Assembly: GCF_964212655.1 (NCBI RefSeq)
Contig: NZ_OZ156465.1
Span: 682,001 to 746,000 of the forward strand
Length of the DNA stretch: 64,000 bases
Direction of reading: 5' to 3'
DNA from: Candidatus Thiodiazotropha sp. LNASS1
GTDB taxonomy: Bacteria; Pseudomonadota; Gammaproteobacteria; Chromatiales; Chromatiaceae
This document shows positions 8,193 to 41,288 of this stretch, one piece after another. The stretch's first letter is position 1; every line of letters begins with the position of its first letter. The notes below the pieces were generated by a model. That model was not told the DNA's origin. It worked only from the letters and a program-made list of their open reading frames with translations, and searched no databases. Both the position numbers and the translations under genes were made by a program.

Positions 8193-8206
8193 TTGACAAA
8201 TGTCAA
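8193..8206. promoter_or_regulatory. FNR/DNR-type operator upstream of nirS
   Basis: TTGACAAATGTCAA, a symmetric TTGAC-N4-GTCAA site in the nirS leader. CRP/FNR-family regulators of denitrification (DNR, NNR) recognise TTGA[C/T]-N4-[A/G]TCAA. One of eleven such sites in the window. Confidence 0.85.
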
Positions 8207-8266
8207 ATCAAAAAATGTCCATTTCTCCGATAGTCTGATTCACGGTTCTGGAAGTGTGAACTCGAA

Positions 8267-8280
8267 TTGATACGGATCAA
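8267..8280. promoter_or_regulatory. FNR/DNR-type operator upstream of the bacteriohemerythrin gene
   Basis: TTGATACGGATCAA, a perfect TTGAT-N4-ATCAA palindrome about 100 bp upstream of the ATG at 8378 and in the nirS-divergent intergenic region. Because it falls inside the longest open frame of the next gene, it supports the later start for that gene. Confidence 0.85.
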
Positions 8281-8377
8281 GGCTAAAAGGAACCTGAGTG
8301 AGATGATCCCGACAGGCGGGGTGTGCCTGCTCAAGAACACCGCTTTTCCGTTAGACAATCCTTTGGGGATATCCATT

Positions 8378-8944
8378 ATGCGTAAGAGCTTAAAGACCTT
8401 TGGCCTCTCCCTCTTCATTGTGCTGGCCTTTCTGGTTATCGGTATCGGCTTTCTGTTCGGTATCGACAATCCGGTCCCCTGGATCATGATCGCCGTACTC
8501 TTGGCTTTACCGGTTATCCACAAAAAAATGACATCCCGCGATTTCGTCTCCTGGGACGACAACTTGAGCGTAGGGATTCAGGCGATAGATGACGATCATC
8601 AAAAGCTCTTGACACTCATCAACAATCTGCAGACGGCGGTGCTCTATCCCACTGGTGAGTCCTTTGAACGCCAGGCGTTGAGTGACCTGGTCGACTACAC
8701 TAAATACCACTTTGCGCGTGAAGAGAAACTGATGAGTGAAAACGGATATCCGGAATACGAGGACCACAAGAAGCAGCATGAAGAGATGATTGCCAAGGTG
8801 TCCCGCTTTTTGGACTCCTATGAAAAGGACCGCGAATCCACTATCGATGAACTGAACAGCTTCCTCAAGAGCTGGTTGATCGACCATATTGCAGGAACCG
8901 ACCAGAAATACAGTGAGTTTCTTAGAGAGAAGGGTATTCGATAA
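8378..8944 (+). CDS. Membrane-anchored bacteriohemerythrin
   Basis: A 188-residue protein with two N-terminal membrane helices (FGLSLFIVLAFLVIGIGFLF and WIMIAVLLALPVI) followed by a hemerythrin domain that binds O2 or NO at a di-iron site. The usual ligand pattern is visible: His in DDDHQKL, His/Glu in KYHFAREEKLM, two His in DHKKQHEEM, and His/Asp in LIDHIAGTD. The domain begins with the typical WDDNLSVGIQAIDDDHQ. The ATG at 8378 has GGGGAT upstream; the frame is open further 5' but that region holds the operator. Divergent from nirS, with an operator for each. Likely NO or O2 buffering or sensing at the membrane during denitrification; the role is inferred. Confidence 0.9.
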   Translation: MRKSLKTFGLSLFIVLAFLVIGIGFLFGIDNPVPWIMIAVLLALPVIHKKMTSRDFVSWDDNLSVGIQAIDDDHQKLLTLINNLQTAVLYPTGESFERQALSDLVDYTKYHFAREEKLMSENGYPEYEDHKKQHEEMIAKVSRFLDSYEKDRESTIDELNSFLKSWLIDHIAGTDQKYSEFLREKGIR

Positions 8945-8999
8945 TCAGGTTGAACTTGTGCCCGGTATACTCAATACATATACGGCCGGTTTTTAATCT

Positions 9000-9185
9000 A
9001 TGCGGGTCAATTGCCTCTATTGCGGCGAGTCAATCGCAGATGACATCGATCATTGTCCACACTGCGGTGCTCCCTCGCACTATCAAAAAAGAGGTTTTCG
9101 CATCGGTGGCAGGGAGAAGTTTCTTATATTCTTTGTGGTGCTGTCCGCTGCGACCTTGATTATTGCCTTGTTGTTGCCGAGGTAG
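9000..9185 (+). CDS. Small zinc-ribbon protein with C-terminal membrane helix
   Basis: 61 residues: CLYCGES and CPHCGAP form a four-cysteine zinc ribbon at residues 5-24, then a basic linker and one membrane helix at 41-58 (LIFFVVLSAATLIIALLLP). Function unknown. It lies between the hemerythrin gene and the DUF2189 gene on the same strand. A second protein of the same design sits at 18498-18755. Confidence 0.6.
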   Translation: MRVNCLYCGESIADDIDHCPHCGAPSHYQKRGFRIGGREKFLIFFVVLSAATLIIALLLPR

Positions 9186-9227
9186 CGGAGACATCAAGCC
9201 AACCAAAAAGATAGGGTGGAGGCCCGG

Positions 9228-9983: not shown

Positions 9984-10035
9984 GTTAACGATCAACCCAT
10001 TATTTACTGCATGCGGCTTTGTTCAGGCGCCCCAT

Positions 10036-10049
10036 TTGACACATGTCAA
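10036..10049. promoter_or_regulatory. FNR/DNR-type operator upstream of norC
   Basis: TTGACACATGTCAA, symmetric TTGAC-N4-GTCAA, about 65-80 bp upstream of the norC start. Nearly the same sequence as the nirS operator. Confidence 0.88.
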
Positions 10050-10114
10050 GGTAGGGAAGGGTGTCTGTTTTCTAATAGCGGGGACTCAATCAAGACAGGC
10101 CTGGGAGGAGAGTG

Positions 10115-10567
10115 ATGGCACAAGCGTTCACGAAGGAGATGTCACGGAACATCTTTTACGGGGGTACGGCGTTTTTCTTTCTGTTGTTTTTGGCGTTGAC
10201 CTTTGACACCCATCTGGCGCTGCCGGACCGGGACAATCGCGAGGCATTGGACCCGACCACGGAGCGGGGGCAGATGATTGCCCTGGGGAAGAAGGTATGG
10301 GAGGAGAACGACTGCATCGGCTGTCACACGCTGCTGGGCGAGGGGGCCTATTTTGCGCCGGAGCTGGGCAATGTTTACCAGCGTTACGGTAACAGCAAGG
10401 AGGCGATCATGGCGTTCATCAAGGGACGTCCGGTGGAGGGGATACCGGGTCGTCGCAGCATGCCGCAGTTCAACCTGAGCGATGAGGAACTGAAGGCGGT
10501 GGCGGAGTTTCTGCAGTACAGCTCTGAGATCGACACGGCGGACTGGCCGCCGAACATTCAGGGTTAG
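10115..10567 (+). CDS. norC: Nitric oxide reductase, cytochrome c subunit
   Basis: Membrane-anchored monoheme cytochrome that passes electrons to NorB. One N-terminal helix (NIFYGGTAFFFLLFLALTF), then a periplasmic domain with the heme motif CIGCH in the NorC-typical context WEENDCIGCHTLLGEGAYFAPEL, and a Met ligand in RRSMPQF. The ATG at 10115 has GGAGGAG four bases upstream; a GTG one codon earlier is also open. 150 residues, the family norm. It is followed after 38 bp by norB, forming the standard norCB unit. Confidence 0.97.
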   Translation: MAQAFTKEMSRNIFYGGTAFFFLLFLALTFDTHLALPDRDNREALDPTTERGQMIALGKKVWEENDCIGCHTLLGEGAYFAPELGNVYQRYGNSKEAIMAFIKGRPVEGIPGRRSMPQFNLSDEELKAVAEFLQYSSEIDTADWPPNIQG

Positions 10568-10584
10568 TGGTGCTGACAGAGTAG

Positions 10585-12045
<1,461 letters not shown>

Positions 12046-12076
12046 ATAAACACGACTAACCGATAGCAACCCCCTG

Positions 12077-12116
12077 GCCGGACGGTGAGATGGCATCAAC
12101 CCGTTCGGCTTTTTTT
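12077..12116 (+). terminator. Intrinsic terminator after norB
   Basis: GCCGGACGG pairs with CCGTTCGGC (one G-T pair) across a 15-base loop and is followed by TTTTTTT. It lies 31 bp after the norB stop and closes the norCB transcript. Confidence 0.88.
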
Positions 12117-12150
12117 ATGGGCAGGCTTTGAAGAAAAGAGAAGAAAAGGA

Positions 12151-12266
12151 AAGGCCGCTAATGGACGCCAGTCACCGCGAATGCACGCAAATAGTTTCAT
12201 TGCGATCACTTGCTCATGGAAATAATGTTTGCGTTTATTAGCGGTGATTCGATTCCATTGGCGGCC
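12151..12266. repeat. Palindromic dispersed intergenic element (two long arms)
   Basis: The left arm (12153-12192, ggccgctaatggacgcc...cacgcaaat) and the right arm (12230-12266, gcgtttattagcggtgatt...ggcggcc) are imperfect inverted repeats around a ~35-bp centre. A copy of the right arm occurs at 19294-19335. It resembles the non-coding palindromic elements scattered between genes in many gammaproteobacteria. Confidence 0.7.
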
Positions 12267-12655: not shown

Positions 12656-12669
12656 TTGATCAAGATCAA
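12656..12669. promoter_or_regulatory. FNR/DNR-type operator between the small membrane gene and the multiheme cytochrome gene
   Basis: TTGATCAAGATCAA, a perfect TTGAT-N4-ATCAA palindrome. It sits 106 bp from the minus-strand ATG at 12550 and about 200 bp from the plus-strand ATG at 12871, so it may act in either direction. Confidence 0.8.
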
Positions 12670-12870
12670 CACAAGCCTGCCTTAATTCTCTTGACTTGGT
12701 GAATGTCGCAGAATCGATGTTGACCTGTATGAATACTGGACGAGATACTCCAAGGTGCTCGGATAGTAGGTCCGTTTGGCACTGTAGTCCCGCTTTTTGG
12801 CTCCGTTTGATCTTTTCAACCTATAAGCCTCGTTCTAGCGGTTGTGCTCTTGACGCACGAGGAAATAATA

Positions 12871-14853
12871 ATGTTGAACATGGCATTCCGATCGCCAGTC
12901 TGGATTTTCGTTTTTCTTTTAACCCTCTGTTTCTTCACTCCCGTTCAGAGTGCCGAGGGTAATCTGACCATCTTGGGTGAAACGCCACCACCGGGTTTCG
13001 ACCCAGTCTCGGGGAAGCGCATCATCCCCAACGAACGCTGCCTGAAGTGTCATGGCGACGCGCATGAGAAGACCGATATCCGGGAAGACGGCACCATCGT
13101 CGATATCTACGCGGACCCGCAAAAGATCGAGAATAGCGTGCACGGTGAACAGTCCTGTACCAACTGTCACGCCACCATCGAGCGAGTACCGCATCGCGAG
13201 TCACCGGAGGTGGTCGTCGGCTGTGTGGAGTGCCACCGGGAGACCTGGAACAAGCATAGGAACGATCCCGACGAGAAGTACGAGCGCCTCGGCGTAGTGG
13301 TAGAAACCATCGATGCCTTCTACGACTCGGTACATGCCCTGCCCAACAAGCACGACCAGTCGGAGACCAACGCCACCTGCTACGACTGCCACGATGCCCA
13401 TAACATCGGAACCCTGGGCAGCCACCAGCGCGCCGAGCACCGCCTGAAGAACCCGGAGGTGTGTGGTGAGTGTCACAAAAAGGAACTCAACGACTACCGG
13501 GAGTCCGACCACGGCAAGGCGGTGCTGGAAGAGGGCGACAGCGAATCCGCCGTCTGCTCAGACTGCCACACTACCCATACCATCAGCTCACCCGACACCG
13601 ATCAGGCCAAGCTGGCGATCACCAAGAATTGCGGAGACTGCCACAAGGAGGCGCAGCGTACCTACTTCGACTCTTATCACGGCCAGGTGCATCGACTTGG
13701 TTATACCAATACCGCCAAGTGTCACGACTGTCACGGCAGCCACAAGATCAAGGGCGAAAATGATCCGACATCGGAGATCCACGCCAACAATCGTCTGGAA
13801 AACTGCAGGGTCTGCCACGAAGATGCCAATGAAAACTTCCTGACCTTCTGGCCGCACGGTGATGCGGACGACAGAGAGAGATATCCGGGTCTGTGGTTCT
13901 TCAAGATCTTCATGCAGACGCTGATCTTCTCGGTCATGGCCTTTTTCTGGGTCCATGTGGTGCTGTGGCTCTACCGCGAGGTGATGGACCGTATCCAGGG
14001 TAAGGGTTTCAACGAGGATCTGGATAATCCCGATGTGATCTATTTCCGCCGTTTCCCGACCGTTTGGCTCTGGATCCACGCGCTGTTCGCCATCTCCACC
14101 ATGACCCTGATTCTGACCGGAACCACCCTGCTGTTTTCACATACCGGTTGGGCCAAGGCGGTGGTGGTTTTCCTCGGCGGAACGGAGATGGAGGGCATTA
14201 TCCATCGTACCGCGGCCGTAATCTGGCTGGGTATTTTCCTGGCCCACCTGACCATAGCCGTCAGCAACATCTGGAGCAAGCGCGATAGCTTCAAGTGGTT
14301 CGGCAGCACCTCTATGCTGCCCAACTGGAAGGATTGGGATGACCTGAAAGGCATGTTCAAGTGGTTCATCGGCCAGGGTCCGCGTCCCGAGTTCACTCAC
14401 TGGACCTATTGGCAGAAGTTCGACTACTGGGCACCTTTCTGGGGTGCGGCGATAATCGGTTCATCCGGTATCATGCTGTTCGCGCCGGAGACGACCGCCA
14501 TCATCCTGCCGGGCTGGATGTTCAATATCGCCACCCTGGTACATGCCGAGGAAGCGCTGCTGGCGGCCATCTTCCTCAACTCCGTGCACTTCTTCAACGT
14601 GCACTTCAGGCCTGAGCGTTTCCCGATGAGCACGACCATCTTCACCGGTAAGATCCCCATCGAGGAGTTCAAGCACGATCACCGTCTCGAATACGAGCGG
14701 TTGCTTGAGAGCGGGGAACTGGACAGGCATCTGGTCAGACGTCCCTCGCGCCGTTCAGATCTGGCGGCCTCCTTCATCACCACTGTGCTGATCATGACCG
14801 GTCTGGCCCTGCTGACCCTGGTGCTGATCGGCCTGATGACCAAACCAAGCTGA
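12871..14853 (+). CDS. Nine-heme cytochrome c fused to a membrane cytochrome b module
   Basis: A 660-residue protein. A signal peptide (to about residue 27) precedes a periplasmic domain with nine CXXCH motifs in order: CLKCH, CTNCH, CVECH, CYDCH, CGECH, CSDCH, CGDCH, CHDCH, CRVCH. The C-terminal half has about five to six membrane helices with His residues suited to heme b (WIHALF, IIHRTAAVIW, LAHLTIAV, LVHAEEALLAAIFLNSVHFFNVHF), like formate dehydrogenase or hydrogenase b-type subunits. It could exchange electrons between the quinone pool and periplasmic partners. The ATG at 12871 follows GAGGAAATAATA; the frame is open 9 codons further up. The fccA-like gene follows immediately, suggesting a sulfide- or thiosulfate-linked electron route. 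Confidence 0.85.
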   Translation: MLNMAFRSPVWIFVFLLTLCFFTPVQSAEGNLTILGETPPPGFDPVSGKRIIPNERCLKCHGDAHEKTDIREDGTIVDIYADPQKIENSVHGEQSCTNCHATIERVPHRESPEVVVGCVECHRETWNKHRNDPDEKYERLGVVVETIDAFYDSVHALPNKHDQSETNATCYDCHDAHNIGTLGSHQRAEHRLKNPEVCGECHKKELNDYRESDHGKAVLEEGDSESAVCSDCHTTHTISSPDTDQAKLAITKNCGDCHKEAQRTYFDSYHGQVHRLGYTNTAKCHDCHGSHKIKGENDPTSEIHANNRLENCRVCHEDANENFLTFWPHGDADDRERYPGLWFFKIFMQTLIFSVMAFFWVHVVLWLYREVMDRIQGKGFNEDLDNPDVIYFRRFPTVWLWIHALFAISTMTLILTGTTLLFSHTGWAKAVVVFLGGTEMEGIIHRTAAVIWLGIFLAHLTIAVSNIWSKRDSFKWFGSTSMLPNWKDWDDLKGMFKWFIGQGPRPEFTHWTYWQKFDYWAPFWGAAIIGSSGIMLFAPETTAIILPGWMFNIATLVHAEEALLAAIFLNSVHFFNVHFRPERFPMSTTIFTGKIPIEEFKHDHRLEYERLLESGELDRHLVRRPSRRSDLAASFITTVLIMTGLALLTLVLIGLMTKPS

Positions 14854-14867
14854 TGGGGGCGGATAAC

Positions 14868-15464
14868 ATGTTGAGAAACGATACGATGAGCAAGAAAGTT
14901 CGCAATCTACTCCTGGTTTTACTGGTGTTGCTTCCGACGGTTGCCCTGTCGGGGCCATCGGGCCAGGCGCTGGCCTTCACCTGCGCCGGCTGCCATGGTA
15001 CCGATGGATCCAGCGTCGGCCCCTCCAGTCCCTCCATCGCAGCGATGGATCCGGATGTTTTCATCGATGCCATGCAGGCCTACAAGCGTGACCAGCGCAA
15101 TTCCACCATCATGAACCGGATTGCCAAGGGCTACAGCGACGAGCAGATCAAGGCCATGGCCTGGTTCTTCGCCAAGCAGGAACTGCGTCTTTACACCCAG
15201 AAGACAGATCAGCAACTGGTAAGTCTCGGTGAAAAGCTGCACACCAGCCATTGCGAGAAGTGCCATGAAGAGGGTGGTCGTCCGGGCGACTCCGGTACCC
15301 TTGCCGGTCAGTGGATGCCCTATCTCGACTACAGCATGCAGGATTTCATCGACGGCAGGCGCCCCTACCCGAGAAAGATGAAACGAAAGGTGGATGCCGC
15401 TATTGAGGAGCAGGGCGAACAGGCCATGCCCGCACTGATCCACTACTACGGCAGTCAGCACTGA
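14868..15464 (+). CDS. fccA: Diheme cytochrome c subunit, flavocytochrome c sulfide dehydrogenase type
   Basis: Periplasmic cytochrome of ~198 residues with a signal peptide (NLLLVLLVLLPTVALS) and two heme motifs, CAGCH (in AFTCAGCHGTDG) and CEKCH (in HTSHCEKCHEEGG), one in each half as in cytochrome c4-like FccA. It accepts electrons from the flavoprotein FccB encoded 22 bp downstream. Start choice: ATGs exist at 14853 (overlapping the previous stop), 14868 and 14886; 14868 has a G-rich ribosome site, but translational coupling from 14853 is possible. FccA assignment rests on pairing with FccB and the diheme layout. Confidence 0.85.
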   Translation: MLRNDTMSKKVRNLLLVLLVLLPTVALSGPSGQALAFTCAGCHGTDGSSVGPSSPSIAAMDPDVFIDAMQAYKRDQRNSTIMNRIAKGYSDEQIKAMAWFFAKQELRLYTQKTDQQLVSLGEKLHTSHCEKCHEEGGRPGDSGTLAGQWMPYLDYSMQDFIDGRRPYPRKMKRKVDAAIEEQGEQAMPALIHYYGSQH

Positions 15465-15486
15465 TCGCGGAGAAGGAACAATAACC

Positions 15487-16782
15487 ATGAATAAAATCAA
15501 TCGCAGAGATTTCATCCGCTTGGGTGGAGGCCTGACCCTGGCGGGTACCTCGCTTATGCTTCCAACCCTTGCCCTGGGAGCCGCTCCCAGGGTGGTGGTA
15601 GTGGGTGGTGGCGTAGGGGGCTGCACTGCCGCCAAGTACCTGCGCAAGCTGAATCCAAACCTGAAGGTCACCCTGATCGAAGCCAAAAAGCAGTACACAT
15701 CCTGTTTCATGAGCAACGAGGTATTGAGCGGCGACCGCACCCTGGATTCCATCACCTTCGACTACGAAGGACTCAAACGGCATGGTGTGGAGATCGTCAT
15801 CGACAGGGTCACGGCCATCGAACCGGCAAATAAGCAGGTCGCCACCGTCGACAGCGGTACATTCGAATATGATGCATGCGTGGTCTCCCCCGGCGTGGAT
15901 TTCAAGTGGGACGCCATCGAGGGCTACGATGCAGCGGTCTCCGAGACCATTCCCCACGCCTGGTATGCCGGTCCTCAGACACTCACCCTGAGGCGGCAGA
16001 TCGAGTCTATGCCGGAAGGGGGCAGGGTGATCATCGTTGCGCCGCCGAATCCCTACAAGTGCCCGCCCGGGCCCTATGAGCGGGCCGCGCAGATAGCCAT
16101 GTACTGCAAGCACCATAAACCGAGGGCGAAGATTCTCATCCTCGATCCCAAAGACGCCTTCTCCAAGCAGGGGCTGTTCAGGCAGGGCTGGTCGAAGCTC
16201 TATGGCTTCGGTACCGATAACGCCATGATCGAATGGGTCGGCGCAGCGGGCGGCGGCACAGTGGAGGAGCTCGATCCTTCAACCCGCACCCTGCAGGCTG
16301 AGGTCGAGGAGTTCACCGCCGACGTGATCAACATCATTCCACCCCAGAAGGCAGGTAAGGTGGCCTACGCCTCAGACCTGGTGGAAGGTGACTGGTGCCC
16401 GGTCAACAAGCGGACCTTCGAATCGAAGCGTCACCCCGATGTCTATGTGCTGGGCGACGCGTCGAGTGCCGCCAAGATGCCGAAATCGGCCTATGCCGCC
16501 AACTCCCAGGCCAAAGTCGCCGCCGCCGCCATCGTCACCAAGTTCAATGGCGCGGATCCCGGCGATCCGACCTTCGTCAACACCTGCTACAGCATTCTGG
16601 GTGAGGAGCACGGAATATCGGTGGCCGCGGTCTACACCCTCGACGAAGCATCCAACACCATTCTGCCTATCAAAGGCTCGGGCGGTCTTTCACCCATGGA
16701 TGCATCGACCGAGCAACGAAAACGAGAGGTCAAGTACGCTCACAGCTGGTTCAAGAACGTCATCAACGACATGATGGAATAG
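15487..16782 (+). CDS. fccB: Flavocytochrome c sulfide dehydrogenase flavoprotein subunit
   Basis: Periplasmic FAD enzyme oxidising sulfide to sulfur or polysulfide. The N-terminus is a Tat signal (NRRDFIRLGGG). The FAD-binding GGGVGG follows at 40-45. Cys73 in YTSCFMSNEV matches the cysteine that covalently binds FAD, and Cys192 (YKCPPGPYE) and Cys366 (NTCYSILGEEHGIS) match the redox-active pair of the Allochromatium enzyme. The C-terminal TFVNTCYS to YTLDE region is the FCSD flavin-binding domain. 431 residues, normal length. It closes the three-gene unit with the nine-heme cytochrome b and fccA, inside the denitrification island. Confidence 0.92.
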   Translation: MNKINRRDFIRLGGGLTLAGTSLMLPTLALGAAPRVVVVGGGVGGCTAAKYLRKLNPNLKVTLIEAKKQYTSCFMSNEVLSGDRTLDSITFDYEGLKRHGVEIVIDRVTAIEPANKQVATVDSGTFEYDACVVSPGVDFKWDAIEGYDAAVSETIPHAWYAGPQTLTLRRQIESMPEGGRVIIVAPPNPYKCPPGPYERAAQIAMYCKHHKPRAKILILDPKDAFSKQGLFRQGWSKLYGFGTDNAMIEWVGAAGGGTVEELDPSTRTLQAEVEEFTADVINIIPPQKAGKVAYASDLVEGDWCPVNKRTFESKRHPDVYVLGDASSAAKMPKSAYAANSQAKVAAAAIVTKFNGADPGDPTFVNTCYSILGEEHGISVAAVYTLDEASNTILPIKGSGGLSPMDASTEQRKREVKYAHSWFKNVINDMME

Positions 16783-19235: not shown

Positions 19236-19293
19236 CCTAATCACAAATTCGTCAGTCTCGATTTCGTTTTTTATTGAGTAATCTAATGTCCTT

Positions 19294-19335
19294 TTGCGTA
19301 CATTAGCGGTGATTCGCGTCAATTTGCGGCCTTTC
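19294..19335. repeat. Dispersed intergenic repeat, single arm
   Basis: ttgcgtacattagcggtgatt followed by cgcgtcaatttgcggcc matches the right arm of the palindromic element at 12151-12266 at roughly four of five positions. It sits between the accessory block and the norF-like gene. Confidence 0.65.
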
Positions 19336-20334: not shown

Positions 20335-20348
20335 TTGACAAGGATCAA
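20335..20348. promoter_or_regulatory. FNR/DNR-type operator, proximal to the minus-strand norE
   Basis: TTGACAAGGATCAA, TTGAC-N4-ATCAA, 85 bp from the start of the minus-strand norE. One of two sites in this divergent gap. Confidence 0.82.
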
Positions 20349-20401: not shown

Positions 20402-20415
20402 TTGATATTCATCAA
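20402..20415. promoter_or_regulatory. FNR/DNR-type operator, proximal to the plus-strand norE
   Basis: TTGATATTCATCAA, perfect TTGAT-N4-ATCAA, 66 bp upstream of the GTG start at 20481. Separate sites suggest the two arms are controlled independently by the same regulator. Confidence 0.85.
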
Positions 20416-21062: not shown

Positions 21063-21068
21063 TCCACA

Positions 21069-24500: not shown

Positions 24501-24514
24501 TTGATGAATGTCAA
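24501..24514. promoter_or_regulatory. FNR/DNR-type operator upstream of the hemerythrin-DUF2249 operon
   Basis: TTGATGAATGTCAA, TTGAT-N4-GTCAA, 54-67 bp before the ATG at 24568. Confidence 0.82.
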
Positions 24515-24567: not shown

Positions 24568-25005
24568 ATGAAAACGATCAACGATTCGATGACACAGGAT
24601 CACCGTCGCTGTGATGAAATCTTCGTGGAGATGGAACAGGCCATTATGCAACGCAAGTGGCCGGAGGCGGATCGTCTCTGTCAGGCGTTTATCAATTCGA
24701 TGGAGCACCATTTCAAAATAGAAGAGGAACTGCTTTTCCCGGCACTCATAAAAGCAACAACCCAGGCAAATGGTCCCGTCAACGTGATGTTGATGGAGCA
24801 TGAGCAAATGCGACATCTGATGTCGCAGTTGGTGTCGTCGTTGGACAATATGACCAGATCACTCTCTGCAGGTTATGTAGAGACATTACTCGTCACCATG
24901 CAGCAACATAATATGAAAGAGGAGAGTATTCTCTATCCGATGGCGGACAATGCGGTTCCAGACGTCAGCGACGTAATTGATAAGGCGTATTCGGAGTCTG
25001 CCTAG
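24568..25005 (+). CDS. Hemerythrin-domain (HHE) protein
   Basis: 145 residues forming a single four-helix di-iron domain: MTQDHRRCDEIFVEME, MEHHFKIEEELLFPAL, LMEHEQMRHLM and MQQHNMKEESILYPMADN give the expected His and Glu ligands. The E-E-LFPAL and KEESILYPMAD signatures are those of the HHE cation-binding family, which includes iron-sulfur-centre repair and NO-linked proteins such as DnrN. It overlaps the DUF2249 gene by one base (TAGTG). With an FNR/DNR operator ahead, a role in NO damage response or NO sensing is likely; direct activity is not shown. Confidence 0.88.
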   Translation: MKTINDSMTQDHRRCDEIFVEMEQAIMQRKWPEADRLCQAFINSMEHHFKIEEELLFPALIKATTQANGPVNVMLMEHEQMRHLMSQLVSSLDNMTRSLSAGYVETLLVTMQQHNMKEESILYPMADNAVPDVSDVIDKAYSESA

Positions 25006-25253
25006 TGGAGCTGCGGCTTGATGTACGGGAGTTGGAGCCGCCTGTTCCGCTGGAGCGCATACTGGAAACCCTGGAGGAGTTGCCATCGGATGACTGGCTT
25101 AAGGTGCGACACAGCCGTGAACCCTACCCACTCTACAGTCTTTTGCGCGAAATGGGTTTTGACTGGAGTACCAAGTGGCAGAATAGTGAGTGCATTATCC
25201 TGATCTGGCATACGGGGAGTCCACCGCCCGATGATAGTGGAAGGAGGTTGTGA
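25005..25253 (+). CDS. DUF2249-domain protein
   Basis: 82 residues beginning at GTG, the stop of the hemerythrin gene overlapping its start. The sequence LDVRELEPPVPLERILETLEELPSDDWLKVRHSREPYPLYSLLREMGFDW is the small TusA-like fold typical of DUF2249, with the conserved EPYPLY and a Cys in NSECIILIW. The family often occurs with hemerythrins and denitrification genes and is suspected of taking part in NO or iron handling. Four-base overlap (GTGA) with the next gene implies translational coupling. Confidence 0.85.
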   Translation: MELRLDVRELEPPVPLERILETLEELPSDDWLKVRHSREPYPLYSLLREMGFDWSTKWQNSECIILIWHTGSPPPDDSGRRL

Positions 25254-26521
25254 AAACCACCGGGCTCTCTCTCGATCAGGCCCCACCGATTATCATACCT
25301 TTCAAGTTCTTTCTCACAGCTTCACTGTTCAGCGTCATCGTGGGAATCGTCTTGATGATAGATGCCGAGGCGGTCTTCCTGTCCCGTTGGAGTCCTCTGG
25401 CGTTGGGCATCACCCATTTAATGACCGTTGGATTTCTCGCTCAGGTGATGACGGGCGCCATGATCCAACTATTACCTGTGTTGGCTGGTTCTCCCATTCC
25501 GGCAGTCACCACAGTAAGCAGAATCATCCATCTGTCACTTTTCGCCGGCGCCTTGCTGATGGGGTTGGGTTTTATCCGCTCCCATCAATCTGTTCTCGTT
25601 ACAGGCGCCGGTCTCGTATTGTTTGCGATTACCCTGTTTCTACTTGCCATGGCAGTTTCCCTGATCAGCTCCAAAAGTCGGCATGACAACGCAATTCCAA
25701 TCGGCCTCGGTTGGATGGCTGTCATTCCCACGGTGGCTATCGGCGTCTACATGGTCCTGGGACTATCCGGTATGTTGACGATAAACGATATGCCTGAGCT
25801 CATCGCTGTTCATCTCTCATGGGGGCTTTTAGGATGGGTCGGTATTGTACTATTTGCGACAATTTTCCAAATATTACCGATCTTCTATGTAACCAGGGAG
25901 ATGCCGGTCAATTTCAGGGATATCTCCTTCATTATCGTTTTCGCATTGCTGGCGTTGTTCAGCTTGTCGCAATATATCAACAGCGAACTGCTTGCCAATA
26001 GTCTGCCGATGGTTGTTGCGCTGTTTCTTCTGTTGAGTCTCGCACTGTTTCAAATGATATGGGAACGCAGGCGAAAGATAGTCGACATGACATTGGTTTT
26101 CCTCTGGACCGGCCTGATCTGTTTGGCGCTTGCAGCTATTGTCTGGATGCTTGGTGACAATGAGCTTCTGGTCGGGGTGCTTTTGCTTGGCGGTGTCTGT
26201 ATAACCATCCCGATCGGGATTATCTACAAAGTCATCCCGTTTCTATGCTGGTTTCACCTGCAGAGTCTATTAGTGAAGCAGGGGAAGCTGTCGTCCAGGC
26301 TGCCATCGATGAAACACTACATCAATGAAGTGGATGCAAAGCGCCACTATCTGCTGCATCTGGCGGCAATTGCACTGATCGCTGCCGCTACCCTGATGCC
26401 GGCAACGCTTGCGAGAACTTCTGGCATTGCTTTAAGCCTGTCCTCACTCTATTTTTTAAAGAACCTGCTGTCTGCGTTGTTGAGATTCAACAAGCAACAA
26501 CGGGCACTCTTGGATAGATGA
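25250..26521 (+). CDS. Twelve-helix membrane protein of denitrification clusters
   Basis: 423 residues, starting at GTG inside the DUF2249 stop. About twelve hydrophobic helices. Two related motifs recur, GITHLMTVGFLAQVMTGAMIQLLPVL and AVHLSWGLLGWVGIVLFATIFQILPIFY, each with a His followed by a Q-LP turn; this recalls heme-copper-oxidase-like or NnrS-like membrane proteins in which such His bind heme, but the similarity is at motif level only. Third gene of the hemerythrin-DUF2249 operon, so probably linked to NO metabolism. Confidence 0.75.
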   Translation: MKTTGLSLDQAPPIIIPFKFFLTASLFSVIVGIVLMIDAEAVFLSRWSPLALGITHLMTVGFLAQVMTGAMIQLLPVLAGSPIPAVTTVSRIIHLSLFAGALLMGLGFIRSHQSVLVTGAGLVLFAITLFLLAMAVSLISSKSRHDNAIPIGLGWMAVIPTVAIGVYMVLGLSGMLTINDMPELIAVHLSWGLLGWVGIVLFATIFQILPIFYVTREMPVNFRDISFIIVFALLALFSLSQYINSELLANSLPMVVALFLLLSLALFQMIWERRRKIVDMTLVFLWTGLICLALAAIVWMLGDNELLVGVLLLGGVCITIPIGIIYKVIPFLCWFHLQSLLVKQGKLSSRLPSMKHYINEVDAKRHYLLHLAAIALIAAATLMPATLARTSGIALSLSSLYFLKNLLSALLRFNKQQRALLDR

Positions 26522-27339: not shown

Positions 27340-27353
27340 TTGATCTTCATCAA
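27340..27353. promoter_or_regulatory. FNR/DNR-type operator upstream of the secreted protein-ZnuA/SCO pair
   Basis: TTGATCTTCATCAA, perfect TTGAT-N4-ATCAA, about 150 bp upstream of the ATG at 27501. Confidence 0.82.
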
Positions 27354-27500: not shown

Positions 27501-27860
27501 ATGTTATTTAGATTAAATAAATTAACTTTAATATTTGCTGCAAGCCTTGCCCTGACGACTGTTCAGCCAAGAGAGGCGTCAGCGCAGAGCAGCGAGCAGC
27601 TTGCGGCCATCACTGCGCTCGGTTCACTCAACGGCATCGCACTGCACTGTAAGGCTCTAAGTGAAACACAACGAATCAAAAGGACATTGGTGGCGACACT
27701 CCCGAAGCGGCGTCAGCTGGGTGAACTGTTCGATTATGAAACCAATCGGTCATTCATGGCGTTTATCGAGAAAAATAACACCTGCCCAACTCCTCAATCA
27801 TTGGAACAACGGATCGATGAGGCCCTCGATAGGCTGAAATCACTCTATCCCGCAAAATGA
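27501..27860 (+). CDS. Secreted protein of unknown function
   Basis: About 119 residues with a signal peptide (LTLIFAASLALTTVQPREASA). The mature part is helical with two cysteines (ALHCKAL and NNTCPTP) that could form a disulfide, and no other motif. The ATG at 27501 is about 12 bp after AGGAAAG; a TTG at 27489 is also open. The stop overlaps the ATG of the ZnuA/SCO gene by four bases, so the two are made together, which points to a role in periplasmic copper delivery to NosZ. Confidence 0.6.
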   Translation: MLFRLNKLTLIFAASLALTTVQPREASAQSSEQLAAITALGSLNGIALHCKALSETQRIKRTLVATLPKRRQLGELFDYETNRSFMAFIEKNNTCPTPQSLEQRIDEALDRLKSLYPAK

Positions 27861-29302
27861 GTTGTCATAAATCAAGGCTACCGCTAGTTTTCCCCCTTTT
27901 GATACTTGGGCTGTTCATTGCCCCTGTATCCGAGGGCGCAGACTCCCTGCGCGTCATGGCCAGCATAAAACCGATTCACTCGATCATTGCCGGACTGATG
28001 GAGGACGCGGAAACACCTGAATTGCTGATCGATGATCAGATTCCTTATGCCTATAGCCCCACCGAGGAGCAGCTGGCGTCGATGCGCAGTGCGGACATAC
28101 TGTTTTGGGTAGGCGCCGAACTTGAGCCGCGACTCGCTGAGATCATCGAAACCCTGCCCCCGCAGGTGAAAGTGATTGAACTGCTATCACACCAGGGCAT
28201 GAAGATACTTCCCGCGAGGACGGATCCTGATCAACGCGATCCCTTTTTCTGGCTGGACAATCGAAACCTGCTCATCATCATCGACGACATTGCCCGGCTT
28301 CTACGGGATGCCGATCCTCTGCGCACCCATCTCTATGAACGAAACAGACGCAATATTCTTTCACGCCTGTCGCGAATAGACAGAGAGTATGAATATGGCT
28401 ACCGTGGCATGAAGGCCGGCTTAGGCATTCAGTACTTCGATACACTGCAATATTTCGAACAGGCATATGCGTTAAAGATCATCGACCATGTGGCCAGTAC
28501 ACCAGGCAAGGGAATAGATACAGCTGAATTGCTCAAGGTCCGGGAGAAAATTGTTAACGGAGAAGTGACTTGCCTGTTGTCGGAAAGCGGCTTTCCAGCC
28601 AGGCACAGCGAACTTCTGATGAATAAGGGCAGCAGTGTCAATCATGGAGAATTGAACAGCCTGGGTTTCGGTATTACGGCTGGGCCCCATCTCTATTTCG
28701 AGATCATGGAGCACAACACCAATGTGATCAAACGCTGTCTGAAAGCCGAGTCACAGACCGCCGAAACTGCAACAAAAACGATCATACCGGAGCACGCCGT
28801 GTCGATTGAAGGCATCGGCGGTGGTCAGTATATCCTGACAGATCATATGGGGAGGCTGGTCACCAAGGAGAGCATGAAGGGAAAATATCAGATAGTCTAT
28901 TTCGGCTATACTTTCTGCCCCGACATCTGTCCCACCTCACTGCAGATTCTATTCCAGGCACTGGATATTCTCGGCGAGGGGTCTGAGCTGTTTCAGCCCT
29001 ATTTCATTACGATCGACCCAGGCCGGGATACCATCGCAGTGATGAGAAACTATGTGCAGTATTACGATGAGCGCCTGATTGGTGTCACCGGTTCCGTTGA
29101 GATGATTGAAAGAGTGGCCAGTCAGTTCAAGGCGAGATACGAAAAGGTCGTAGAAGAGGATACAACTGATCCATCGATGTATCTGATGGACCATACCGCC
29201 AGTCTCTATCTCCTCGACCCGGAGGGAAGATTCCTCACGAAATTTGCCCATGGCATTGCACCTGAAGACCTTGCACAGCAGCTTCGTATGCTGCTGCCAT
29301 GA
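27857..29302 (+). CDS. Fusion of a ZnuA-like metal-binding domain and a SCO1/SenC copper chaperone
   Basis: 481 residues. A signal peptide (to about 27) is followed by a TroA/ZnuA-like domain (about 30-300), recognised by VMASIKPIHSIIAGLM and the paired-domain layout, and a SCO domain (325-481) with CPDIC at 354-358 and His446 in LMDHTAS, the standard copper ligands. In the ZnuA part the first His is present, but the DPHxW motif reads DPFFWLD and the third region reads IQYFDTLQYFEQAYAL, so at least two canonical metal His are lost. SCO proteins deliver copper to CuA sites, and NosZ carries one, encoded next. I know of no common fusion like this. It overlaps the previous gene by ATGA. Confidence 0.88.
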   Translation: MSCHKSRLPLVFPLLILGLFIAPVSEGADSLRVMASIKPIHSIIAGLMEDAETPELLIDDQIPYAYSPTEEQLASMRSADILFWVGAELEPRLAEIIETLPPQVKVIELLSHQGMKILPARTDPDQRDPFFWLDNRNLLIIIDDIARLLRDADPLRTHLYERNRRNILSRLSRIDREYEYGYRGMKAGLGIQYFDTLQYFEQAYALKIIDHVASTPGKGIDTAELLKVREKIVNGEVTCLLSESGFPARHSELLMNKGSSVNHGELNSLGFGITAGPHLYFEIMEHNTNVIKRCLKAESQTAETATKTIIPEHAVSIEGIGGGQYILTDHMGRLVTKESMKGKYQIVYFGYTFCPDICPTSLQILFQALDILGEGSELFQPYFITIDPGRDTIAVMRNYVQYYDERLIGVTGSVEMIERVASQFKARYEKVVEEDTTDPSMYLMDHTASLYLLDPEGRFLTKFAHGIAPEDLAQQLRMLLP

Positions 29303-29457: not shown

Positions 29458-29471
29458 TTGACCTACATCAA
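29458..29471. promoter_or_regulatory. FNR/DNR-type operator upstream of nosZ
   Basis: TTGACCTACATCAA, TTGAC-N4-ATCAA, 87-100 bp upstream of the nosZ ATG. Confidence 0.85.
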
Positions 29472-29557: not shown

Positions 29558-31855
29558 ATGAACAAGAGCTTGAAAAGCATATCTGCACTGGTAATGGGTT
29601 TGGGGATCGGTATGGGCGCCGCTTCCAATGCCTCAGCCCAGTCATCCTTAGAAGAGGTCATGAAGGAGCGTGGCCTGACGCAAAAGGACCTCTTGGCAGC
29701 CGCCAAAACCTATACACCGACCGGCGGGCGGGATGAGTATCTGGCCTTCAGTTCGGGGGGGCAGAGCGGCCAGGTTATCGTATACGGCGTGCCATCCATG
29801 AGGATCCTGAAGTACATTGCGGTGTTTACTCCGGAGCCTTGGCAGGGTTATGGCTTCGATGATGAATCCAAGGCCGTATTGGCACAGGGCAGAATCAACG
29901 GTGAAGATATCACCTATGGTGATACCCATCACCCCGCATTTTCTGAAACCGAGGGTGAATACAACGGCCGCTATCTGTTCATCAACGATAAGGCCAACCC
30001 GCGCATGGCAGTCATCGATCTGCACGATTTCGAGACCAAGCAGATCGTCGTCAACCCTTTCATGAAATCGGAGCATGGTGGCGCCTTCGTCACGCCTAAC
30101 ACCGAATACGTCATGGAAGCGTCTCAATATGCAGCGCCTTTCAGCGACGACTTCGTACCGCTCGAAGAGTTCAATGAGAAGTACCGGGGTGCGGTGACCT
30201 ACTGGAAGTTCGATGACAAGAAGGGTCGGCTCGATCCCGAGCAGTCATTCACCTTCGAACTGCCTCCCTACAGCCAGGACCTCTCCGACGCCGGTAAAGG
30301 ACCTTCCATGGGTTGGGGTTTCACCAACTCCTTCTGTTCCGAGCGTTATGTGGGCGGTATCGAACGTGGACGTCCTCCCTTCGAGGCCGGCTGTTCTCAG
30401 AAAGATACCGACTTCCTGCATGTCACCAACTGGAAGAAGGCCGCCGAGCTGGTTGCCGCCGGCAAGGTCAAGAAGTCCAAGGGCGCCTACATGATCCCCA
30501 TGGATCAGGCGGTCAAAGAGGGTCTGCTCTATCTGATCCCCGAACCCAAGAGCCCGCATGGCGTCGATGTAAGCCCGGACGGCACCCACATCATCGTTTC
30601 CGGTAAGCTGGACAGCCACGCCTGGGTATACAGCTGGGAGAAGATCCAAAAAGCCATCAAGGACAAGAATTTCGAAGGCAAAGACCCCTATGGTATCCCG
30701 ATCATCGCCATGAAGGATGCCCTGCATACACAAGTACAGGTGGGCCTGGGTCCATTGCATACTCAGTATGATGCCAAGAAGTGCGTGGTCTATACCTCGA
30801 TCTACGTCGACTCGATGGTTACCAAGTGGGACTACTGCGAAGGCAAGGTGCTGGATCAACTGCATATCCACTACAATATCGGCCATCTGGTAGCGATGGA
30901 GGGCGACTCCGTTTCACCTGACGGCAAATATCTGGTCTCCCTGAACAAGCTGGCCATCGACCGCTTCAATCCTGTCGGTCCTCTGCATCCGCAGAACCAT
31001 CAGCTGATCGATATCAGCGGCGATAAGATGCAGCTGCTCTACGATATGCCGCTGCCGCTGGGCGAACCCCACTATGTGGTGGCGATCAAGGCCGACAAGC
31101 TGAAACCGGCAGTACGCTACAAATCGGGCTGGAACAGCCGTACCGATTCCAAGTCTCCCTACAAGACCCGTGCGGGACGTGAGAAGGTCGTGAAGGATGA
31201 GAATGGTGTGGTTCATGTCTACGGTACGGTTATCCGTTCCCACATCACGCCTGAGATCATCGAGGTGGAAGAGGGCGACACTGTCTCCATCCATCTGACC
31301 AACCTGGAGCGAGCTGAGGATGAGACCCACGGTTTCGCGCTCTATAACGAGAACGTGAATCTCTCCATCGAACCGGGCAAAACCGTATCGGCCACCTTCA
31401 AAGCCGACAAGGCTGGCGTCTTTCCCTACTATTGCACCGAGTTCTGTTCGGCGCTCCATCTCGAGATGCAGGGCTATCTGCTGGTCAAACCGAAAGGTTA
31501 TGTGGCCAAGACCACTCAGATGGTAGAGGGAACGAAGTACACCGAGGCTGACTACAAGAAACAGGTCAAGACCAATCTGGACACCCAGGCGGTCATCGAC
31601 TCTGTGGTCGGCTTCATTACCAGCCACAACTACAAAGACTTCCCGGAAGTTGTAGCACTTGTGGAAGATGCCACCGATCAGCTCGGTTTCGCGGAAGAGG
31701 CGAAGAAGAAGTCCGAGACGTTCGCGGCCAAGGGTGACTTTCAGAACGCCACTCTATGGGCGGGCCAATGGTGGCAGTATCAGGTCAAGACGGCTGATCT
31801 GGGACTGCGCGCCAAGACCTTTCTCGAGGAGCATGGCGCTAAGAAAGTCAAATAG
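29558..31855 (+). CDS. nosZ: Nitrous-oxide reductase, Sec-exported (clade II-like)
   Basis: 765-residue periplasmic enzyme reducing N2O to N2. The signal peptide (KSISALVMGLGIGMGAASNASA) lacks the twin arginine of clade I. All seven CuZ histidines are visible: THHP (two), SEHGG, SPHGVD, GPLHTQ, IGHLVA and GEPHYV. The CuA domain has the YYCTEFCSALHLEMQG loop with both Cys, His and Met. After CuA comes a ~115-residue C-terminal extension, mostly helical, without a heme motif. The ATG at 29558 follows GGGACGGGAAATA; upstream codons have no ribosome site. The gene order that follows, with nosB and two cytochromes, is clade II-like. Confidence 0.97.
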   Translation: MNKSLKSISALVMGLGIGMGAASNASAQSSLEEVMKERGLTQKDLLAAAKTYTPTGGRDEYLAFSSGGQSGQVIVYGVPSMRILKYIAVFTPEPWQGYGFDDESKAVLAQGRINGEDITYGDTHHPAFSETEGEYNGRYLFINDKANPRMAVIDLHDFETKQIVVNPFMKSEHGGAFVTPNTEYVMEASQYAAPFSDDFVPLEEFNEKYRGAVTYWKFDDKKGRLDPEQSFTFELPPYSQDLSDAGKGPSMGWGFTNSFCSERYVGGIERGRPPFEAGCSQKDTDFLHVTNWKKAAELVAAGKVKKSKGAYMIPMDQAVKEGLLYLIPEPKSPHGVDVSPDGTHIIVSGKLDSHAWVYSWEKIQKAIKDKNFEGKDPYGIPIIAMKDALHTQVQVGLGPLHTQYDAKKCVVYTSIYVDSMVTKWDYCEGKVLDQLHIHYNIGHLVAMEGDSVSPDGKYLVSLNKLAIDRFNPVGPLHPQNHQLIDISGDKMQLLYDMPLPLGEPHYVVAIKADKLKPAVRYKSGWNSRTDSKSPYKTRAGREKVVKDENGVVHVYGTVIRSHITPEIIEVEEGDTVSIHLTNLERAEDETHGFALYNENVNLSIEPGKTVSATFKADKAGVFPYYCTEFCSALHLEMQGYLLVKPKGYVAKTTQMVEGTKYTEADYKKQVKTNLDTQAVIDSVVGFITSHNYKDFPEVVALVEDATDQLGFAEEAKKKSETFAAKGDFQNATLWAGQWWQYQVKTADLGLRAKTFLEEHGAKKVK

Positions 31856-32422: not shown

Positions 32423-32436
32423 TTGATGTATATCAA
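32423..32436. promoter_or_regulatory. FNR/DNR-type operator upstream of the second nos cytochrome
   Basis: TTGATGTATATCAA, perfect TTGAT-N4-ATCAA, about 145 bp before the ATG at 32581. It gives the downstream nosBDGHFLY genes a possible promoter of their own. Confidence 0.82.
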
Positions 32437-39021: not shown

Positions 39022-39556
39022 ATCTCTGCTTCTCGCGGTGATGTTGGCAGTGGTGTTCCTGCTGATCGGCTGTTCGGGGGACAGTGGTAGTGGTCCCCTG
39101 GCGATTAAATGGGACAGGGATGCTTGCGAACGCTGTCGCATGGTATTGAGTGATCGCCATCACTCGGCCCAGATCCGCTATTTTCCACCGCACAAACAGA
39201 GATCGGCAGTAGCCCGCTTCGATGATATCGGCTGCGCTGTCTTGTGGTTATCTGAAAAACCCTGGCAACAGGACCCCAGAACCGAGATTTGGGTCACCGA
39301 TCATCGAAGTGGGGAATGGATCGATGCCACCCGGGCAATCTATGTGAAAGGCCATCACACACCCATGGAGTATGGCTTGGGCGCACAAACGGAGGCGGCA
39401 CCCGACGGACTCAGCTTCGCCCAGGCGAAGGAGCATATCCGCAGTGTGGAGCAGCAGAACCAGATACATACGGCCCATCTGCTGGAACGCCTCAAGGAAC
39501 AGGAAGCGCGCAGAGCGCGTGACAAAGCAGAGGATACGGATAGAGGCGGGGAGTGA
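39011..39556 (+). CDS. nosL: NosL copper-binding lipoprotein
   Basis: 181 residues with a lipoprotein signal (LLAVMLAVVFLLIGC) and the NosL metal motif DACERCRMVLSDRHHSAQ, giving Cys, Met and His ligands for Cu(I). The family supplies copper to NosZ via NosDFY. The C-terminal ~40 residues are charged and probably helical. It overlaps nosF by 11 bp, so the two are coupled. Confidence 0.93.
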   Translation: MWFRSLLLAVMLAVVFLLIGCSGDSGSGPLAIKWDRDACERCRMVLSDRHHSAQIRYFPPHKQRSAVARFDDIGCAVLWLSEKPWQQDPRTEIWVTDHRSGEWIDATRAIYVKGHHTPMEYGLGAQTEAAPDGLSFAQAKEHIRSVEQQNQIHTAHLLERLKEQEARRARDKAEDTDRGGE

Positions 39557-39603
39557 ATGATGGCGATAATAACTTTCTCTCATCGAACGGGAGTCGAAAA
39601 TCC

Positions 39604-40431
39604 ATGAAATATCTCTGGCTCGCGGCCTACACCGATATCATTGAGTCCCTGCGGGCGCGCTGGTTCATGGTCTACGCCACGGTATTCGGTGGATTGGTGG
39701 TCATCCTGTTCGCCTTCGGTCTGGCCGAGTCGCGCATCATGGGTTTTACCGGCCTTTCACGGCTGTTGATCACCTACATCCAACTCTCCATGGCGATGCT
39801 GCCGATCTTTGTCCTGATCACTACCGTGAGGTCGGTGGCCGGTGACCGGGAGGCGGGTGTCTTCGAATATCTGCTGTCACTGCCGATCACACTCAGCGCC
39901 TGGTTCTGGGGACGTGTTTTCGGCCGTTTCTTCGTCGTTTTCCTGCCGGTCTTTCTCGCCATGCTCGGCGCCACAGCCTGGGGAACGGTCAAAGGAGTCG
40001 AGGTGCCCTGGCATCTGCTGCTCTATTACAGCGGTCTGCTGATGGCCCTGGCCTGGTGCTTTCTGGGGATCGGCATGTTGATCTCCACCCTGACACGCAG
40101 TACCGATGTGGCCCAGGGCGCCGCCTTTGTGGTCTGGTTGACCCTGTTACTGTTTCTCGACCTGATCCTGTTGGGGATTTTGATCCAGGAACATCTGCCG
40201 CCGGAGACGGCGGTGGCGATCGCACTCACCAATCCGATGCAGGTATTCCGCACCGCTACCATGATGCTGTTCGATCCCCAACTGGTGCTGTTGGGACCCA
40301 CCGCCTATGTGATATTGGATAACTTCGGCCAGAGTGGCTACATCACCTACGCAATGCTCTATCCCATCGCATTGGGTACGGCCTGTGCCGGTCTGGGGTT
40401 TGTTATGTTCAAGCGAAGTGATTTGCCCTAG
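39604..40431 (+). CDS. nosY: NosY ABC-transporter permease
   Basis: About 275 residues, six membrane helices (for example WFMVYATVFGGLVVILFAFGLA and LLITYIQLSMAMLPIFVLITTV) with the family stretch VAGDREAGVFEYLLSLPI between them. Membrane partner of NosF. The ATG at 39604 (MKYLWLAAYTD) is preferred; an in-frame GTG at 39553 overlapping the nosL stop adds 17 polar residues. It ends the nos run; the next gene is on the other strand. Confidence 0.94.
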   Translation: MKYLWLAAYTDIIESLRARWFMVYATVFGGLVVILFAFGLAESRIMGFTGLSRLLITYIQLSMAMLPIFVLITTVRSVAGDREAGVFEYLLSLPITLSAWFWGRVFGRFFVVFLPVFLAMLGATAWGTVKGVEVPWHLLLYYSGLLMALAWCFLGIGMLISTLTRSTDVAQGAAFVVWLTLLLFLDLILLGILIQEHLPPETAVAIALTNPMQVFRTATMMLFDPQLVLLGPTAYVILDNFGQSGYITYAMLYPIALGTACAGLGFVMFKRSDLP

Positions 40432-40524
40432 GGCCACAGTTCATGCAGTCTGCGCAAAATCCAACGGTACGGCAGGGCGCACCGCTGCTGGGTGCAGGCG
40501 CTTAACCGAATACACGATTCCCGC

Positions 40525-41187
40525 TCAGTCGTCGAGGATGGAGAGATAGGCGAATATATCGGTCAGTTCGTCATCACTGAAATCCGACAACAGCTCGTCG
40601 TCCGGTGCATCCTCGTCGTGAATACGGATCTTCTCCCGGTACTTTTTCACCTGCCGCCAAAGATAGTTTGTATATTGGCCGGCGAGCATTGGCACTGCCT
40701 CTTCCTTGTCTCCCATCCCATCGCGGCCATGACATGAGGCGCACTCCTTCCGGTAGATTTTCTGGCCCTTATCCAGATCACCGGGGGCGCGTGGAATCTG
40801 CATCAGGCGTTTGGATTCCAACAGACGCTGATAGGCGTTGAAACCCGGCGCGGTCTCATCCACCGGCGGCAGTTTTGTCTTCAATTTTATCTGCTCGAGA
40901 AATTTCGAAATGTCTTCAATATCCTGATCGGGCATCTGTCGATCATCCACATACTCCACCATCGCCAGATTGGGACGAATACGCTCACGAAAGAGGTGGA
41001 GCTGCTTGGCCAGGAAGGCGCTCGGCATCCCCGCCAGCCGGGGATACTCTCCCTCCTTGCCGCCCTGACCGTATTCACCATGACAACCGGCGCATACTTC
41101 GTTGATCTCTTCACCGTTTTCAAAATCGAAAGCGGGACTCAACGTCGGCAGAATGGAGAGGCAGATTAAGATAATAGGCCTTGGCAT
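40525..41187 (-). CDS. Periplasmic diheme cytochrome c (c4-like)
   Basis: 220 residues with a short signal peptide (ILICLSILPTLSPA) and two heme motifs, CAGCH (NEVCAGCHGEYGQGG) and CASCH (KECASCHGRDGMGD), one per half, each followed by the LAG.....L...Q pattern of class I cytochromes. It is convergent with nosY and has its own FNR/DNR operator 88 bp upstream of its ATG, so it is expected to be made together with the denitrification enzymes, probably as an electron carrier. Confidence 0.88.
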   Translation of the reverse strand: MPRPIILICLSILPTLSPAFDFENGEEINEVCAGCHGEYGQGGKEGEYPRLAGMPSAFLAKQLHLFRERIRPNLAMVEYVDDRQMPDQDIEDISKFLEQIKLKTKLPPVDETAPGFNAYQRLLESKRLMQIPRAPGDLDKGQKIYRKECASCHGRDGMGDKEEAVPMLAGQYTNYLWRQVKKYREKIRIHDEDAPDDELLSDFSDDELTDIFAYLSILDD

Positions 41188-41274
41188 CGGATTGGAATCA
41201 GGTCGTCATACAGGTGAGTCTGCTGAAATCTATGTGTAATCACGGCGATTTGACCACAGTTAGAAATGAACCGT

Positions 41275-41288
41275 TTGACGTTAATCAA
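41275..41288. promoter_or_regulatory. FNR/DNR-type operator upstream of the diheme cytochrome
   Basis: TTGACGTTAATCAA, TTGAC-N4-ATCAA, 88-101 bp upstream of the ATG at 41187. It marks the right boundary of the set of eleven sites. Confidence 0.8.

Follow-up and report, generated by a model that had tools for sequence, protein, structure and literature searches.

In Pseudomonas and beta-proteobacteria, the regulator DNR recognises the box CTTGATnnnnATCAAG upstream of nirS, norB and nosZ; nnrS of P. stutzeri is likewise DNR-regulated, COG4309 is co-transcribed with nor genes, and the alpha-proteobacterial NnrR site reads TTGcg-N4-cgCAA (Rodionov et al. 2005, PMC1274295). In Dinoroseobacter shibae, experiments show that one nirS box serves both FnrL and DnrD, and boxes are placed 39.5 and 41.5 base pairs (bp) before starts (PMC5398030). 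The Anr-Dnr cascade of P. aeruginosa sets an FNR-type regulator above DNR, which controls norCB and other denitrification genes (PMC12403760). The present analysis concerns a 64,000-nucleotide stretch (the window, genome positions 682001-746000) of the genome of Candidatus Thiodiazotropha sp. LNASS1, in which palindromes of the form TTGAY-N4-RTCAA stand before nir, nor and nos genes. Positions below are those of the window unless marked as genome positions.

DNR boxes before nir, nor, nos and nnrS have long been described, and the regulon type is already known; the parts worth follow-up as new are a duplicated norCB pair and several accessory genes. Shared with the Pseudomonas/beta-proteobacterial DNR regulon, as far as the covered parts of its description go, are the box before nirS, norB, nosZ and nnrS and the link to DUF2249; here, in contrast, a ZnuA-SCO/119-amino-acid (aa) unit, a multiheme/flavocytochrome c unit and two hemerythrin units are also boxed, and norCB is duplicated (PMC1274295). 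One box would serve FNR and DNR types, as measured in D. shibae, and an FNR type would stand above DNR, as in P. aeruginosa, to which here only the box before dnr points. Among the entries listed from the literature searched, mainly open-access papers, none concerned denitrification regulators in Thiodiazotropha; two symbiont papers mention denitrification and name no regulator in the parts covered. The locus offers a conserved, testable regulon for denitrification and nitrous oxide (N2O) reduction in sulfur-oxidising clam (lucinid) symbionts.

A sequence-only reading had named eleven such palindromes, and all eleven match the pattern exactly; it had missed a twelfth match, at 8609, which is coding. 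Dinucleotide shuffling (100 rounds) gives a mean of 0.47 matches per window, no round reaching 12, and 25 matches against 9.2 expected are found when one mismatch is tolerated. Spacer lengths from 0 to 11 other than 4 give 0 to 2 window matches each. Permuted palindromes of the same letters (n = 59) average 0.41 window matches; the two highest (8, the maximum, and 6) overlap the true pattern, with 5/8 and 5/6 of their sites shared. The proposed whole-genome scan, made with the exact pattern, finds 64 sites in the single contig of 4,746,093 bp, 52 of them beyond the window; this background of 0.71 per 64 kb compares with 12 in the window (Poisson P = 1.8e-11 for at least 12). Placement is skewed as well: 11 of the 12 sites fall in the 4764 non-coding bases (14%) of the 33289 in 8127-41415 (binomial P 5e-9), non-coding being defined by our own gene list, with gene starts set by signal peptide and spacing. 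All 12 window sites read TTGA(C/T), and none has the CG after TTG of the NnrR type. The match at 8609-8622 lies inside the hemerythrin gene 8378-8944; of 7 relatives examined, 2 have an in-gene counterpart, and one of these belongs to the same species. It was dismissed as a further regulatory site and is treated as chance.

The boxes are conserved in relatives (Candidatus Thiodiazotropha, Sedimenticola and others). An exact box was sought within 250 bp upstream of orthologues, leaving aside rows with identity below 45%, a match start past query residue 40, less than 150 bp upstream or more than 5 N. The relatives are not independent, some genomes are counted under two handles, and the counts include the source genome's own loci (norC 2, norB 2, DUF2189 1, last diheme 1). 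An exact box precedes nirS in 72/77 orthologues, the first hemerythrin gene (8378) in 28/37, norC in 31/37 (one mismatch in 6), the leftward norE1 (box 20335) in 8/8, norE2 (20402) in 13/13, the second hemerythrin gene (24501) in 18/19 (one mismatch in 1), the 119-aa gene in 11/19, nosZ in 21/21, the nos cytochrome gene (32423) in 18/27 and the last diheme gene (41275) in 20/22 (one mismatch in 2). For comparison, six genes lying within operons or next to them were taken: upstream of norD, norB, nosD, the 33561 gene, DUF2189 and pentapeptide orthologues, the exact box occurs in 0/111 and a one-mismatch form in 5. Permuted palindromes reach 0-3% in the orthologue upstream regions. Half-sites are 90-100% conserved and flanks mostly less; the spacers of the norE2 and nos cytochrome boxes are also conserved (0.94 and 0.91), which leaves the half-site contrast weak there. 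In six other Thiodiazotropha nirS loci, a box at 73-75 bp is the nearest one listed; the nirS protein is 100% identical to that of a Ctena orbiculata symbiont and 99.8% to that of Candidatus Thiodiazotropha endolucinida. Excess, intergenic placement and conservation together support the earlier assignment of FNR/DNR-type sites over nir, nor, nos and nitric oxide (NO)-related genes.

Promoter geometry agrees for most units. Behind the window boxes, the mean -10-like score is highest 35 bases from the box start. The best -10-like hexamer lies 34-37 bases from it in 90 of 209 distinct promoters (a few from the source genome), with 20 expected, and in 7 of 10 promoter groups the peak falls 35 or 36 bases away, the class II FNR spacing.

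The sequence-only reading held that no CRP/FNR regulator is encoded in the window, and neither of two Pfam models searched has a match there; as it supposed, the regulator would be encoded elsewhere, with a candidate DNR 20 kb ahead and FNR types farther off. Nine CRP-family proteins exceed the Pfam cut-off genome-wide. Seven carry the recognition helix E-x-x-S-R (five of them without Arg before the Glu), in line with the earlier caution that FNR and DNR sites are inseparable by sequence. The candidate DNR has the helix PETFSR and lacks C-x2-C-x5-C near its N end, as in the DNR family; no NCBIfam model reached its cut-off on it. Its gene and a second norCB lie back to back; next come nirE (uroporphyrinogen methyltransferase), nirF (cytochrome d1-domain) and nirD/L, G and H (three siroheme-decarboxylase-type proteins), with boxes at genome 662021, 662185 and 664410, 17-21 kb before the window start. 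The order dnr, norCB, nirE is common to genomes G134, G135 and G123. The proposal of a regulon spanning 33 kb from 8193 thus stands for its nir, nor and nos boxes but starts too late, missing dnr, the second norCB and nirE-nirH with their three boxes. The genome encodes one more DNR-like protein (2298343), which shares 49% identity with the first, and no exact box lies within the 4.5 kb read around its gene.

An FNR/ANR-type protein at 3928.9 kb is the only one above the Fnr NCBIfam cut-off (286 bits against 228); it carries C-x2-C-x5-C and V-E-x-x-S-R, and a box (3929629) lies upstream of its own gene. Another FNR-like protein, at 3984.7 kb, scores 141 bits, below that cut-off; it has C-x2-C-x5-C, FNR as its best PDB match and Arg before the recognition Glu, and ccoN with a box (3985158) follows its gene. 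Arg in this place correlates with G in the site in the covered part of one comparative study (Rodionov et al. 2005, PMC1274295), and this protein is therefore a less likely reader; its candidacy as the FNR reader is weakened by both this residue and its score.

The boxes are very probably operators of the CRP/FNR family. The preferred reading, with a probability of roughly 0.75, is that CRP/FNR-family activators use the eleven intergenic palindromes as operators, with the DNR at genome 661117-661857 as main reader and FNR/ANR providing oxygen input. At low oxygen and with NO, an activator dimer would bind each box, some 41 bp upstream of the transcription start, and bring in RNA polymerase for transcription of the nir, nor and nos units; hemerythrins, the heme-copper-like membrane protein, the ZnuA-SCO fusion and cytochromes would also be switched on. 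The main reader would most likely be the DNR-type regulator of the same island. As oxygen input, these boxes are probably read by the FNR/ANR-type protein (3928.9 kb) too, which may activate dnr by way of the box that precedes this gene. What the sequence shows directly are the boxes, their excess, position, conservation and, in most cases, -10 spacing, together with the presence and type of the regulators; binding, the signals, the sign of control (activation, not repression) and the regulator acting at each site are deduced.

Boxes elsewhere in the genome bear on how wide this regulon is. A crude codon-based gene finder places 29 of the 52 outside sites within genes (at the very start of the gene in 3 cases) and 17 no more than 235 bp upstream of a start, 3 of the 17 in the dnr-nir region. 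Of the 14 remaining promoter-placed targets, 12 were scanned; they include ccoN, NnrS, cytochrome c peroxidase, an ODP-family protein, a hemerythrin, a DsrC-like protein, two multiheme cytochromes, APS kinase and a DUF2244 protein. Half of the promoter-placed boxes (14/28) are concentrated in one 62-kb island. The in-gene matches, on this crude gene call, look like background, and 8609 is similar, which is what chance matches in a moderately A+T-rich stretch would predict; for the set as a whole such an origin is hardly credible given the excess, intergenic placement, conservation and controls, and it is rejected, whereas a single box could still be chance.

Several observations weigh against the DNR-centred reading. 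Three promoter groups with conserved boxes, those of nosZ (29458), 32423 and 8267, have no -10-like hexamer at class II spacing, and their best hexamers lie 19, 21 and 26 bases from the box start. The first footprint set gave no exact box before the multiheme gene (0/2, both most distant relatives), a verdict of non-conservation overturned by the 30-locus survey given below. About 14 genes outside the island also follow a box, including ones not of denitrification; the single regulon proposed earlier is accordingly not a denitrification-only switch. Finally, DNR-like matches in genome G140 reach E 1.7e-8 at best, and it nevertheless keeps nine exact boxes (nirS 2, norC 1, norE 2, hemerythrin, nosZ, nos cytochrome, nirE 1), which suggests that FNR may read the boxes too.

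G140 is the chief argument for FNR/ANR alone reading the boxes as an oxygen-only switch, with DNR acting on few or other targets: its CRP-family proteins above cut-off are two FNR-like and two CRP-like, and the stretch beyond nirE is assembled and holds other genes, with no dnr or norCB. Either FNR suffices there or dnr is hidden in an assembly gap by norC, where a contig ends. Since dnr lies inside the boxed island in the source genome and several relatives, and one of the two FNR-like proteins has both the Arg before the recognition Glu and a score below the Fnr cut-off, an FNR-only switch appears quite improbable. A division into two overlapping regulons, DNR acting on nir/nor/nos and FNR on the multiheme/flavocytochrome c, ZnuA-SCO and cytochrome units through boxes too alike to tell apart, draws on the multiheme unit lying away from nor genes in most close relatives and on ccoN and other non-island units carrying the box. 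There is no usable sequence difference between the box sets, and telling DNR from FNR by box sequence was abandoned as not separable; such a division is unlikely, if arguable.

Features of the locus, in window positions unless marked as genome positions
Feature	Position	Strand	Remarks
DNR-type regulator	genome 661117-661857		20 kb before window; full-length match to P. aeruginosa DNR 3dkw, E 6.5e-37
nirS, cytochrome cd1 nitrite reductase	6477..8126	-	Pfam Cytochrom_D1 8.6e-117; ATG picked by signal peptide
FNR/DNR box	8193..8206	-	exact match; centre 73 bp upstream of nirS start (8126)
FNR/DNR box of hemerythrin gene	8267..8280	+	exact match; also 147 bp upstream of nirS
Membrane-anchored bacteriohemerythrin	8378..8944	+	Pfam and NCBIfam hemerythrin; holds match 8609-8622
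norCB transcription unit	10031..12130	+	near-identical second copy at genome 662180-664276
FNR/DNR box of norCB	10036..10049	+	exact match
Small membrane-protein open reading frame, ~46 aa	12410..12550	-	divergent from multiheme gene
FNR/DNR box, interval between small reading frame and multiheme gene	12656..12669	.	exact match
Multiheme cytochrome with b-type (b561-type) membrane part, diheme cytochrome, flavocytochrome c sulfide dehydrogenase flavoprotein	12844..16782	+	Pfam, NCBIfam
FNR/DNR box of leftward norE-like gene 19651-20250	20335..20348	-	exact match
FNR/DNR box of norE-COX4-norQ-142aa-norD unit 20481-24446	20402..20415	+	exact match; domain searches
FNR/DNR box of hemerythrin-DUF2249-membrane protein unit	24501..24514	+	exact match
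Hemerythrin, DUF2249 protein, 423-aa membrane protein with heme-copper oxidase subunit I-like predicted fold	24568..26521	+	
FNR/DNR box of 119-aa protein and ZnuA-SCO	27340..27353	+	exact match
119-aa exported protein (no known family) and ZnuA-SCO fusion	27501..29302	+	
FNR/DNR box of nosZ	29458..29471	+	exact match
nosZ, Sec-dependent (clade II) nitrous oxide reductase	29558..31855	+	NCBIfam TIGR04246, 881.6 bits
FNR/DNR box of diheme cytochrome at 32563, perhaps also later nos genes	32423..32436	+	exact match
FNR/DNR box of diheme cytochrome 40525-41187	41275..41288	-	exact match

Domain searches back the earlier gene names in the main, including nosD. Both norE genes are COX3-like, NorQ is a NorQ-type AAA protein by domain, and norD, a VWA protein, is named by position. 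Three points needed correction: ZnuA and SCO form one fused 481-aa protein, not a pair; the box at 32423 precedes the cytochrome at 32563, not 32029; and 12656 sits between two divergent units.

The homogenised norCB pair was unexpected. The window norCB and the copy beside dnr (L033) are identical at 2090 of 2097 aligned bases, over a stretch that opens shortly upstream of the box and closes shortly after a terminator-like hairpin. In G134 and G135, two copies identical at 1931/1931 bases occupy the same two places by gene order. Between the source genome and G134, norCB is identical at 1618/1930 bases, and the nirS beside it is 88.5% identical; copies are thus 99.6-100% identical within three genomes vs 84% between lineages, and in the norCB tree they pair by genome. 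In all three genomes the box marks the edge of the identity, 84-86 bp upstream of norC. The drafts G126, G125 and G139 each have two contigs that break off early in norC (G127 and G140 have one), as a repeat would cause. We attribute these patterns to concerted evolution, with gene conversion as the mechanism; that norCB was repeatedly duplicated into the same two places seems less likely. Among the entries listed from the mainly open-access literature searched, none dealt with norCB duplication with gene conversion or concerted evolution. The pair is a natural setting in which to test for selection on NO reductase dosage. Tentatively, and with some doubt, the box-promoter-norCB-terminator cassette may be a self-contained unit kept identical by gene conversion at two fixed island places, matching NO reductase dosage and an NO/oxygen switch; the same switch might drive the place-variable flavocytochrome c/multiheme unit, possibly passing electrons from sulfide to the reduction of nitrite, NO and N2O inside the clam.

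Three accessory genes or gene groups are candidates for a part in maturing clade II NosZ, in handling NO or in electron transfer at low oxygen. They encode the 119-aa protein and ZnuA-SCO before nosZ, the oxidase-like membrane protein grouped with hemerythrin and DUF2249 (a family we take to be COG4309), and the 46-aa protein. The membrane protein (25250-26521) matches no Pfam family up to E 5, PF05940 (NnrS) included, and gives no significant alignment with the source genome's true NnrS; an identity as NnrS was rejected on these grounds. By sequence, the PDB gives no match up to E 5. Its structure, predicted from 12 sequences (pLDDT 87.7), has 11 PDB matches under E 0.001, all heme-copper oxidases or supercomplexes (best 2.4e-5, cbb3), with NO reductase 4xyd next at 1.3e-3; template-modelling scores normalised to the query are 0.57-0.69 and root-mean-square deviations 5.4-10.5. 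H56 and H188 are the only invariant histidines among the 12 sequences, which makes a full oxidase site unlikely. The protein may have an NO-related heme role. Like NnrS, it is a many-helix membrane protein in an NO-related unit and may work alike; unlike NnrS, its fold is nearest oxidase subunit I.

ZnuA-like and SCO domains are joined in the protein 27857-29302, upstream of nosZ, and full-length matches to this fusion are present in the majority of the genus's genomes and in several more from elsewhere in the order. In 5 of 6 further loci, a UbiA-family gene (Pfam assignment for one) is inserted upstream of the 119-aa gene; the box precedes the inserted gene in 4 of the 5 and is absent in one (G140), and the sixth locus has the box and no insert. 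The insert has the pentapeptide (or membrane protein) gene on one side and the 119-aa gene on the other (L112:3252-4214, similarly L105, L113, L115 and L116), and the window has none.

At the cut used, relatives of the multiheme gene occur in 87 of 210 genomes of the order. Thirty loci were read for a box within 400 bp. The 11 loci of the genus (L277-L287, source genome included) all have one, 9 exact and 2 with one mismatch; in L284, L285 and L287 the exact box stands at a spacing of 172-174 instead of ~205. The 19 others (L288-L306) have 10 exact boxes, 4 with one mismatch and 5 with two. Of the 11 closest genomes examined, only 3 have the unit next to nor genes: it adjoins norB or norE in the source genome, G126 and G123. 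The unit is 0.2 Mb from the nor genes in the complete genome G129 and on another contig in G134 and G135. Because the box is kept away from nor genes, shared control points to low-oxygen electron transfer, not specifically denitrification. The small 46-aa reading frame, found in 11 of the 30 loci at 78-100% identity and only in L277-L287, is a conserved gene, only weakly tied to denitrification, for which it had been proposed as a factor by shared control. Two direct repeats of 39 bp (12228-12266 and 19293-19331), 85% alike, flank the stretch with the multiheme unit and three small genes, and possibly mark the edges of an insertion.

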